Source: Deferribacteraceae bacterium (GTDB lineage Bacteria > Chrysiogenota > Deferribacteres > Deferribacterales > JAISNW01). From it: a stretch of DNA of 36,974 bases. The DNA is taken from positions 1 through 36,974 of the forward strand of contig JAIRQX010000095.1 in the NCBI GenBank assembly GCA_031256375.1, read 5' to 3'. Shown piece after piece: positions 2,186 through 5,466 of this stretch (its first letter is position 1; every line of letters begins with the position of its first letter). A model generated the notes under the pieces. That model searched no databases and was not told where the DNA came from. It saw nothing but the letters and a program-made list of their open reading frames with translations. The position numbers and the translations under genes are program-made.

Positions 2186-3598
2186 GTGAATATTAATAAC
2201 GCAATATGGCTGTATTCTGAGAAACCGCTAAATTCCGCCACATTCAGGCATCTCCCGGTTTATTGCACAAAAGCCGGAAAATTCATCTATGAGCGCTTTA
2301 TCCTTTTTGATACTTACGATCTTGAGCTGAACAAATACGGAATAATCCTGTTCTGCAAAAAAACGGATATAAACCGTTTGTATCTTAATAAACTTTCTGA
2401 ACGTCATACGGCGCTTTTGCCTAAAAAACACAAAATTCCGTTCACAGCGGATATACTGAAGGAATCCGTTCTGAAAAAAACCGTTTCAGACGCCATAAAC
2501 TCGCGCCCGCTTCTGGCTGTCCAGTCTGTTACGCTTCTGGTAAAAACATTCAGCATTGTACACGGGGAAACTGGAGAAACAGTTAATGTCACTGAAAAAC
2601 GCTCATCTAACAGTAAGAACGGCTGTTATTACGAACTTACCCCTCCGGATTCACATATAACCGGTTTGGTTGCCCCCGCTCTCCTTGAGGCAGGTTTTAG
2701 CTATATCACACCTGCTGGCTATATGCGTTTCTTTCTCAATAAAAACTCTGTTGTAAAAAGATTTTTTACATCTTTTTCCATTGACAGCGTATCTGATCTG
2801 AAAATAACGCTGAAACAGCTTATGAATAGAGCTGCCGCAGCGCTGGAATTGACATTTGTTCATAACGATCCGAAAAGCGTACACGATATGAGAGTTTTTC
2901 TGAGAGTAATGATCTCTTTGATTTTTCAGAAACCTTTATTATATAAAACCGGATATACGGCGTATTATAAAAAAATATTTAAAAAACTTCGGAAACTTAC
3001 ATCTCCCATCAGAGACGGGGATGTATTTCTGAAGCGACTTAATCACCCTTCAATTAAAGAATACTCAAGGGAGCTTAGGGAAAAACTTTTGCACAGACGG
3101 TTGGAACTGCTGGAAGAACTCAAAAGCTACTGTGAAAACAATGACATTCATTCCGTATTAACAGATGAAAATGCTTTTTCTGATAACACTTCCGCGTATG
3201 CGGATAATTTAAACCTTTTTGTTACCGCGCGTCTGAGAAAAATACTTTCTTCCCTTAAAAAATTAAATGAAAAAACAAACGGCAAACTGCGCGGCGAACG
3301 TGGGCATAAAATACGCATTATTATAAAGAATCTGCGCTATCATTTAGAATTTTTCCCCTGCTCAGGGTTTGAAGAGATCAACAGTGAGCTTACAGAAACA
3401 CTTAAAGATATCCAGTCTGTGTTGGGACGGCTCAGCGACCGCTGCGCGCAAAAAAAGATACTTAACAATCTGGGAGCTGCAAAAACTGATAAGAGAGTTC
3501 TCCATGAAAAACTTGACAAAAAAGAGATTAAATCGGCGTATAACGCCATAGAACGGTTAATAAGGAACTGCCTATGCAGGATAGCGACCCTGGACTGA
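2186..3598 (+). CDS. CYTH-like/CHAD domain protein
   Basis: A 470-residue protein starting at GTG with no clear ribosome binding site. The C-terminal half (about 200-465) is a CHAD domain: helical, basic, with SVHDMRVFLRV (H233, R237), SPIRDGDV (about 273-280) and HKIRIIIKNLRYHLEFF (H374), the conserved histidine/arginine helices that bind polyphosphate in this family. The N-terminal part (about 35-175) looks like a worn CYTH (triphosphate tunnel) domain: FDTYDLELNKYGIILFCKK and a late YYELTPP strand. The ExExK motif that opens active CYTH enzymes is absent, so triphosphatase activity is doubtful. Its 3' end overlaps the next gene by 25 bases, implying translational coupling. No polyphosphate kinase is nearby. 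CHAD assignment is firm; CYTH is an inference. Confidence 0.85.
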   Translation: MNINNAIWLYSEKPLNSATFRHLPVYCTKAGKFIYERFILFDTYDLELNKYGIILFCKKTDINRLYLNKLSERHTALLPKKHKIPFTADILKESVLKKTVSDAINSRPLLAVQSVTLLVKTFSIVHGETGETVNVTEKRSSNSKNGCYYELTPPDSHITGLVAPALLEAGFSYITPAGYMRFFLNKNSVVKRFFTSFSIDSVSDLKITLKQLMNRAAAALELTFVHNDPKSVHDMRVFLRVMISLIFQKPLLYKTGYTAYYKKIFKKLRKLTSPIRDGDVFLKRLNHPSIKEYSRELREKLLHRRLELLEELKSYCENNDIHSVLTDENAFSDNTSAYADNLNLFVTARLRKILSSLKKLNEKTNGKLRGERGHKIRIIIKNLRYHLEFFPCSGFEEINSELTETLKDIQSVLGRLSDRCAQKKILNNLGAAKTDKRVLHEKLDKKEIKSAYNAIERLIRNCLCRIATLD

Positions 3599-5466
3599 CC
3601 CTGCTTGAACGCTTGGCAAAAGCCGGAATACAGATAATTGCCGCCGCAAAACTACCTGAGGAGACCCAGCCAGATCCCTCTCAGCCGGAAGATAAAACTT
3701 GCTTTTTTACCGTGCGCGGCCGAAAGGTTTATCTTGAGTTGCCTAAAAGCGCGGTTTTATGTACATCCGTACCGTATTATCGCGGTAACCGCGGGTTTTT
3801 TCATATTAAGGAAGGAGACGGAGAGTGTATCCTTTTGAAAAGCTGTTACGATGACTTCATAAGGATTGTTAAAAAAGGGATAACCCTCTCAAATGAATCG
3901 TTAAACGGCATTTCCCGCACACTGTCGCAGATTGAAGGTTTGCTGGAAGGGCTTTTTGAAGTAGTTTTCTTCAATTCAGACGGGCAAACATTTATCTTTG
4001 AAGTGAACAAAGCGGAACCGCAATACCAAGACGGATTATTCAGAGATCCTTTGATTCCGCGCCCCCTGACTGCAACGGAATACTGCGATTCTATGTCAGA
4101 TTTGATCCCTGACAAATCACTTTTTTCCCGCTCAATGCTTCAAATAATATTTCCCGAACAGGTATCTTTTTTTATGGTCTCGCTGTTTAAAAAATACTCT
4201 GAAATCCTGAATCCGTTTTTTCTCTTTTTTGACGCAAAAGTGGATTCTCCCTCTGTAAAATGTATAGATTTCAGACCTTATGTAAATATAACCGCTCTTT
4301 TGCGAGGTTTCAGTGAGATTAAGTCAGACAGAAAACTGTTCTGCAGCTTTTATATGCCGTGGCAGAAAATATTTTCCGGCGACAAACCGAAAAAAGCGGA
4401 GCTTTTTATAAGCAAGCGAATATCCGTCTGCGATATAGAAAGTTTTATGGATGAAGTTGAGAAAGAGTATCTTAAAAAAGATTCTTACAATTTGTATGAA
4501 GCGGACTATTTTGATCCTGTCATAAAAATGTCTATGATGGCTATGATTCTGAACTTTATTTTTCAGGAACAATTTGCTTACTTTGCAGATTATGTAAAAG
4601 CGGCGCGTGAAGATGCGCTCCGGTGGATATATAAGACCCGCGGGAACTCATTTTTCATAAAAGGGGAAAAACTGACGCTACCTGTCTATTTTGATTTAGC
4701 AACAGCTCCGGAAGAGGTTCAATTTTTCCCTTACGCGGCTGCATCGGATAAAGACGTTATTTTCCCGCATCTTTCTGCATTTTCTCGCTGGCGCCGCAAA
4801 AAAAAGGCGTTTAAACTACTGGATTCATTGCACAAAATACTTGATCTGCGGGACAGACTTCTTAAAAACGCTGCCGATTATCACTCAAAAACAAGAAAAT
4901 ATATCCTTGACAGCGCCAATTATATGGTTAACAGGGGAAAATTCCAAAATGACCGGCAGGTGTTTCTGTTTGATGTTGCCGATTTGCGCCGGATTACAAA
5001 TGACACATTTTATACAAGTCTTGCGCCGATGTTGGAGTATAAAGAAAGTTTGCTACGCCGTTCCGCCGCTCAGATTATGCCTTATGAGATATATGAAGTA
5101 GATATCCCTTATGCGGGAATGATTGCTGAGGATCAATACTTTAAGAGCGGCGCAGAAAAAAGTTATAAATGCGAAAGTTATAATACAGCGGACATAACCG
5201 GCGAAGCGTTTGCTTTTGACGCCTATGTGACAGACGGTGCGGTCAGCGGAGAAAAAATATACTGTTCCCGCGCTATACCCTTAGCCTCCGTGGCAAAACT
5301 TAATAAACCGCAGGCGGTCATAACTGATATAGCCCCCGCTTTTTCTTATATTACTGAATATTGCCTCATCAATGATATCCCGCTCTATTTCGGAATCCGT
5401 TATTGCGACCTTTTACTTGCCGGAAAAAAGGTAAAGCTAGGGAAAAATAAAGCGGAATCGCTATAG
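3574..5466 (+). CDS. PEP synthase-like protein lacking the phospho-histidine; probable pseudoenzyme
   Basis: A 630-residue protein with no standard name. Parts line up with the PEP synthase/rifampin phosphotransferase family. Residues 123-149 (LLEGLFEVVFFNSDGQTFIF) resemble the last ATP-grasp strands, and 180-245 (IFPEQVSFFMVSLF, then FRPYVNITALLR) the central linker. Residues about 440-530 match the helical segment before the swivelling domain, and 547-620 the PEP-utiliser mobile domain. In that domain the usual GGxxSHxAIVARE is APAFSYITEYCLIN (587-600): the catalytic His falls at Tyr592, the downstream Arg-Glu is also lost, and INDIPLYFG keeps the frame of the motif. The ATP-binding core is largely missing from the short N-terminus. 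AAGGA lies before the ATG, inside the CHAD gene. The stop codon lies in a copy of a repeat end (5462-5472). Confidence 0.6.
   Translation: MQDSDPGLTLLERLAKAGIQIIAAAKLPEETQPDPSQPEDKTCFFTVRGRKVYLELPKSAVLCTSVPYYRGNRGFFHIKEGDGECILLKSCYDDFIRIVKKGITLSNESLNGISRTLSQIEGLLEGLFEVVFFNSDGQTFIFEVNKAEPQYQDGLFRDPLIPRPLTATEYCDSMSDLIPDKSLFSRSMLQIIFPEQVSFFMVSLFKKYSEILNPFFLFFDAKVDSPSVKCIDFRPYVNITALLRGFSEIKSDRKLFCSFYMPWQKIFSGDKPKKAELFISKRISVCDIESFMDEVEKEYLKKDSYNLYEADYFDPVIKMSMMAMILNFIFQEQFAYFADYVKAAREDALRWIYKTRGNSFFIKGEKLTLPVYFDLATAPEEVQFFPYAAASDKDVIFPHLSAFSRWRRKKKAFKLLDSLHKILDLRDRLLKNAADYHSKTRKYILDSANYMVNRGKFQNDRQVFLFDVADLRRITNDTFYTSLAPMLEYKESLLRRSAAQIMPYEIYEVDIPYAGMIAEDQYFKSGAEKSYKCESYNTADITGEAFAFDAYVTDGAVSGEKIYCSRAIPLASVAKLNKPQAVITDIAPAFSYITEYCLINDIPLYFGIRYCDLLLAGKKVKLGKNKAESL

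Follow-up and report, generated by a model that had tools for sequence, protein, structure and literature searches.

An apparent pseudoenzyme of the rifampin phosphotransferase branch kept across the Deferribacterales

Gene organization of the locus

The window, that is, the whole stretch of DNA analysed (36,974 nucleotides), was one whole contig of a 1.95-Mb draft genome. The gene under study starts with ATG and encodes a protein of 630 amino acids; its frame was real and unbroken, as had been claimed in the first-pass annotation, which was made from the window sequence before this analysis. The third-position GC of the gene was 0.42, like that of the neighbouring genes. Residues 587–600 of the product were APAFSYITEYCLIN, with Tyr at residue 592. 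The features of the locus were as follows:

2186..3598, + strand: upstream gene of a CHAD-domain protein
3574..5466, + strand: whole gene of the RPH-type pseudo-phosphotransferase
3757..4011, + strand: what is left of the ATP-grasp domain, from its final part (residues ~62–146)
4087..5160, + strand: region corresponding to the substrate (rifampin)-binding domain (residues ~172–529)
4849..4854, + strand: Arg426-Asp427, at the acceptor-site pair Arg666-Glu667 of RPH-Lm
5176..5463, + strand: swivelling domain of the phospho-His type, without the His (residues ~535–630)
5347..5349, + strand: codon of Tyr592, aligned with the catalytic His (His825 in RPH-Lm)

The CHAD gene (Pfam CHAD, E 1.5e-22) overlapped the start of the pseudoenzyme ORF by 25 bases. 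Among the genomes searched, a CHAD gene lay beside the pseudoenzyme gene in the window genome only, and the other CHAD matches in the order were located elsewhere. As this adjacency was unique to the window genome, the CHAD protein was not supported as a functional partner.

Homology to rifampin phosphotransferase

Single-sequence searches with the window protein gave no match in Pfam and none in the PDB, and the NCBIfam PEP synthase PRK06241 was reached only at a non-significant E of 0.12. A scan of the contigs of the genomes with this protein alone recovered zero relatives. Of 24 orthologues, 16 matched the PRK06241-type PEP synthase in NCBIfam (best E about 1e-7) and four matched RIF_Ptrans_rph, the rifamycin phosphotransferase model. 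A search of the PDB with the family profile (A1) placed three sequences of the rifampin phosphotransferase (RPH) RPH-Lm at the top, with E about 0.007 (0.0065). Alignment of the family with three full-length RPH-type proteins by hhalign covered 487 columns (97.8%, E 1e-12), and S591-Y592 fell on S808-H809 of L055, a full-length RPH-type protein; an unrelated alignment, used as negative control, reached 0.2%. The relationship was thus clear with 24 orthologues, though the single sequence was too diverged for Pfam, NCBIfam, and the PDB.

The C-terminal domain alone (535–630) aligned to the swivelling domains of RPH, PPDK, and enzyme I with an hhalign score of 38.95, while the best of 100 column shuffles scored 16.2. 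Tyr592 lay on the catalytic His both in this alignment and in the full-length one, bearing out the earlier claim that Tyr592 stands where the phospho-His should be. The match to the swivelling domain, which had been described as gapless, was also recovered, but with one 1-residue gap downstream of the motif.

On these alignments and on the models described below, the product of 3574–5466 is a distant, PEP-synthase-like relative of RPH, the phospho-His domain being C-terminal in RPH. Fold and full-length profile similarity speak for descent from RPH and not for activity. The parent was the RPH-type branch with its C-terminal His domain and not strictly PpsA or PPDK, which corrects the first-pass annotation on this point. 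Among 385 genomes, no truncated form was found outside the order, where the sole matches were the three full-length RPH-type proteins.

Predicted structure

AlphaFold models, each built on eight sequences, were obtained for the window protein (pLDDT 73.7) and for a second family member (pLDDT 74.7). In Foldseek searches, six RPH-Lm structures ranked first for both models (E 6.7e-11 for the window protein and 1.2e-12 for the second orthologue), and the next unrelated match came only above E 7e-3. PPDK was found at E about 0.03–0.1 with a probability of about 0.1. The structural similarity to PEP-utilising enzymes that had been predicted was therefore seen with two orthologues.

TM-scores against RPH-Lm were at most 0.48 and the rmsd was 11–17 Å, because the domains were placed differently in the models and in RPH-Lm; the confidence of the models themselves was moderate (pLDDT about 74). 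The match to RPH is not a single rigid superposition; each domain matches in turn along the chain.

Loss of the donor half

In RPH-Lm, the nucleotide is held by Lys22, Arg117, and Thr136 of the ATP-grasp domain, and the swivelling domain carries His825 (PMC4844700). Profile alignment, hhalign, and secondary structure showed a remnant of the ATP-grasp domain in the window protein, with beta strands at 61–100, a helix at 107–124, and strands at 128–146. Profile positions 63–106 aligned to RPH-Lm 267–310, so that the N-terminal strands, as had been proposed, corresponded to the end of the ATP-grasp domain; the hhalign alignment with the RPH-type proteins began near residue ~237 of L055. The preceding ~190 ATP-grasp residues were absent. 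Because the alignment began only near the end of the domain, the nucleotide-binding residues were missing, and the ATP-grasp domain with Lys22, Arg117, and Thr136 expected of an active RPH was not present. PF01326 (PPDK_N) had no match in the gene or anywhere in the window genome.

An active RPH would also carry GGxxSH, with the catalytic His, in its C-terminal swivelling domain; this was likewise not found. Column 592 of the 42 orthologues held Tyr in 24, Phe in five, Leu in five, His in four, Pro in three, and Ala in one, and no GG preceded it. The four sequences with His had neither the GG motif nor the ATP-grasp core. The window copy was therefore not a lone decayed exception among homologues that keep the SH motif, a possibility raised by the first-pass annotation itself; the protein was a trait of the Deferribacterales, with 42 of 46 genomes carrying it. 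The conservation of Tyr592, suggested as a check at the same time, did not hold, and phosphotransfer based on this Tyr was rejected for that reason.

Since the nucleotide-binding part and the phospho-carrier His were both lost, a relay from ATP to His to substrate should not run. No ATP-driven phosphotransfer is predicted, and phosphorylation of rifampin is not expected because the ATP site and the His are missing. The protein probably does some other job than taking up phosphate from ATP.

Conservation of the acceptor half

The counterpart of the substrate-binding domain was delimited by hhalign and by column counts in the 42 sequences. The protein was about 25% identical between families. 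In this counterpart, P226, S227, D374, H420, L423, D427, R496, and D510 were invariant or nearly so. Seven residues of the protein, E169, P226, D374, L423, D427, R496, and D510, were present in 42/42 orthologues, and H420 in 41/42.

Two alignments (profile against PDB, and hhalign) placed Arg426-Asp427 on Arg666-Glu667 of RPH-Lm, the RPH-Lm residue numbers being counted from the chain coordinates. In RPH-Lm, these two residues of the rifampin-binding domain are essential for the second phosphotransfer (PMC4844700). Asp427 was found in all 42 orthologues, and Arg426 in 35, with Lys in three more (Arg/Lys in 38/42). The acceptor-site Arg-Glu pair of RPH was thus kept as Arg/Lys-Asp, with Glu conservatively replaced by Asp. 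As judged from the alignments, the position of RPH-Lm Lys670 was not Lys in the pseudoenzyme, and Gln337 had no evident conserved counterpart.

The donor half of the reaction was lost, whereas several of the best-conserved positions lie in the acceptor half. This pattern is what chiefly goes beyond the first-pass annotation, which had spoken of a frame that "lost its catalytic residues". That wording holds for the ATP-grasp core and the phospho-His, but not for the acceptor pair, kept as Arg-Asp with an invariant Asp427.

Distribution, phylogeny, and selection

The gene was present as a single copy in 42 of the 46 Deferribacterales genomes. It was not found in the other four, namely both f4 genomes, G001 (76% complete), and G036 (families and genomes are given by our own labels), nor in five other genomes of the phylum. 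The 817-aa frame of G036 encoded another PEP-synthase-like protein, not of this family, whose SH motif was intact. All titled related loci were from Deferribacterales, Denitrovibrio, Seleniivibrio, or Deferribacteraceae, on contigs of genomes assigned to the same order as the window genome, which thus belongs to the Deferribacterales. In the gene tree, f1, f2, f3, f5, and f6 each formed one group, f5 with weaker support. Such family groups are as expected for vertical inheritance within the Deferribacterales.

Close pairs gave dN/dS of about 0.04–0.26; these came from the computable pairs only (many pairs gave none), and the individual ratios are rough because several synonymous distances were large. 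The dN/dS check that had been proposed thus pointed to a constrained gene, and the earlier view that this is not a decaying gene stood. The orthologue of G003 (L003) had an in-frame TAG after the ATP-grasp remnant, reflecting either an assembly error or a pseudogene.

Genomic context

The window genome (G000, 95.6% complete) had no match to PPDK_N (PEP synthase, PPDK) or to ATP-type PEP carboxykinase. Its one protein with an intact swivelling domain was enzyme I-like and lay on contig C88. The PPDK_N domain (PF01326) was not detected in any f1 or f6 genome, several of them drafts. The pseudoenzyme gene nevertheless persisted in 19 of the 20 f1 and f6 genomes; neither PPDK nor PEP synthase nor a separate ATP-grasp partner of the PPDK_N type was detected in them, and the pseudoenzyme was the only PEP-synthase-like sequence found there. 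Since these two families keep the protein without a detectable PPDK_N protein, regulation of PPDK or PEP synthase by the pseudoenzyme seems unlikely. As PF01326 matches were zero in f1 and f6, a split enzyme whose ATP-grasp half is a PPDK_N-type protein encoded elsewhere was rejected for these two families.

Frames of about 860–880 aa were common in the free-living families and in f10. In L059, L060, L061, L062, L064, L065, and L066, the long N-terminal part appeared P-loop/RecA-like by eye; in L059, this part was followed by a full PPDK_N ATP-grasp domain, without a phospho-His domain. These PPDK_N proteins and the PPDKs of other families were rejected as close kin (hmmsearch E above 0.02).

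A gene of an ADP-ribosylglycohydrolase (PF03747, E about 1e-50 to 1e-55) lay directly downstream in 13 genomes of f2, f5, f7, and f8. In the loci read, the two genes overlapped by a few bases. The adjoining hydrolase looked intact, with the metal-site motifs GDMLG, DDT, and GGDxDT kept, and these hydrolases had a common N-terminal extension (V.DC). The ADP-ribosylglycohydrolase genes included:

L035, 4233–5192
L037, 7474–8442
L040, 7292–8242
L042, 7199–8161
L043, 4687–5664
L046, 7314–8291

The hydrolase gene was not adjacent in f1, f3, f6, and part of f5, nor in the window, and is therefore not an obligate partner in those families. The link to ADP-ribosylation is a lead and not a result. Separately, in the loci read from f1, f6, and f8, the pseudoenzyme gene adjoined dnaA or was separated from it by a few genes (loci L031, L033, L034, L036, L044, and L046; genomes G003, G004, G009, G016, G028, and G018), dnaA being named from the translated sequence and not by a family search.

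Proposed function and alternatives

An RPH-derived pseudoenzyme under selection is very probably what this gene encodes. The earlier pseudoenzyme reading was sound in that the fold is kept, the ATP-grasp core and the phospho-His are gone, and the gene is constrained, but not as regards the conservation of Tyr592 and a full loss of catalytic residues; the structural or regulatory task proposed with it is a conjecture. The best explanation of the whole, to which we give a probability of about 0.5, would be a vertically inherited pseudo-phosphotransferase of the RPH branch that serves as a cytosolic ligand-binding protein. With modest confidence, its putative function is ligand binding rather than catalysis.

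Two parts of the RPH machinery are gone, the N-terminal portion of the ATP-grasp domain that binds the nucleotide and the carrier His, so that the relay from ATP through His to the substrate should not run. What remains is the final part of the ATP-grasp domain, the substrate-binding domain carrying the Arg/Lys-Asp pair, and the swivelling domain. A small, probably phosphorylated or anionic, putative ligand could then sit in the substrate cleft against Arg426/Asp427 and the neighbouring invariant residues. The swivelling domain may shut the cleft like a lid, and in this closed state the protein may act on a partner. Where the genes are adjacent, the ADP-ribosylglycohydrolase or its substrate would be the first candidate partner.

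Ligand binding with a swivelling lid appears the most economical reading, and a repurposed active site ranks next. The invariant polar residues H420, D427, D374, R496, and D510 are as compatible with a functioning active site as with ligand binding. The central domain might thus be an ATP-independent active site (e.g., a phosphatase, phospholyase, or isomerase) acting on a small phosphorylated substrate through Asp427, His420, Arg496, Asp510, and Asp374, and the swivelling domain would again serve as its lid. Such an enzyme is favoured by the seven residues, most of them polar or charged, that stay invariant at so low an identity, and by the Arg-Asp pair retained at the phosphate-handling site of RPH; however, those invariants that have no equivalent in RPH may play a structural role, and Pfam and NCBIfam recognise no known catalytic motif. 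We consider it a credible but clearly less likely possibility, roughly one chance in a few.

A combined form, in which an ATP-independent enzyme or ligand sensor on the RPH fold reuses the acceptor site, has discarded the donor site and the His, and works with the ADP-ribosylglycohydrolase, is rather unlikely. Slightly less likely again is a scaffold or specificity subunit of the neighbouring DraG-type hydrolase, which would provide the hydrolase with a target or respond to a nucleotide signal. The directly downstream hydrolase with its kept motifs in 13 genomes favours this idea, but the pseudoenzyme persists unpaired in f1, f3, f6, and part of f5, and gene neighbourhood by itself is weak evidence.

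Very improbable is phosphotransfer in trans, in which the phospho-His domain of another protein, e.g., PTS enzyme I, charges the acceptor site. The window genome does encode an enzyme I-like protein with an intact swivelling domain, and the acceptor-site Arg-Asp is kept; the pseudoenzyme's own swivelling domain, however, would occupy the docking site, and both the Lys at the Lys670 position and an evident conserved counterpart of Gln337 are missing from the alignments. We know of no such trans phosphocarrier arrangement for RPH. A decaying gene on its way to loss, as the TAG in the G003 orthologue and the absence from 4/46 genomes might suggest, is refuted by the dN/dS values and by conservation in 42/46 genomes with nearly all frames open, and that TAG may be a draft-assembly error.

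Comparison with known systems

RPH-Lm (PDB 5FBS, 5FBT, and 5HV1; PMC4844700) and the RPH-type PEP synthases (PRK06241, RIF_Ptrans_rph) resemble the pseudoenzyme in overall fold, in the position of the acceptor pair, and in domain order, which in both runs from the ATP-grasp domain through the substrate-binding domain to the C-terminal swivelling domain. Unlike RPH, the pseudoenzyme is without about 190 N-terminal ATP-grasp residues, the catalytic His, the GG motif, and the Lys at the Lys670 position, and the identity is about 15%. With PpsA and PPDK it has the swivelling PEP-utiliser domain and the ATP-grasp ancestry in common; however, their His domain is central, and the fold search gave no significant match to them. 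No PEP-utilizers_C (PEP/pyruvate-binding) domain was matched by Pfam in the pseudoenzyme, so the barrel with central phospho-His of PEP synthase and PPDK was not found. Clade Q of RPH, the most distant phosphotransferase homologues, is likewise far from rifampin specificity and keeps the Arg-Glu pair (here Arg-Asp). General phosphotransferase activity was expected by the authors for clade Q members (PMC4844700); the pseudoenzyme differs from them in having neither ATP site nor His.

Automated annotation as "PEP synthase" would be wrong here, and neither gluconeogenesis nor rifampin resistance should be read from the presence of the gene. Among kinases and phosphatases, pseudoenzymes are familiar, but we know of none described in the swivelling phospho-His phosphotransferase families. 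In open-access full texts, with most subscription journals outside this coverage, no earlier description of a truncated RPH-type family or of a pseudoenzyme in these families was found. What is new here is a lineage-wide pseudoenzyme of the otherwise known RPH superfamily. With one half of a two-site reaction lost and the other constrained throughout an order, it offers a natural test of the RPH substrate domain without phosphotransfer.
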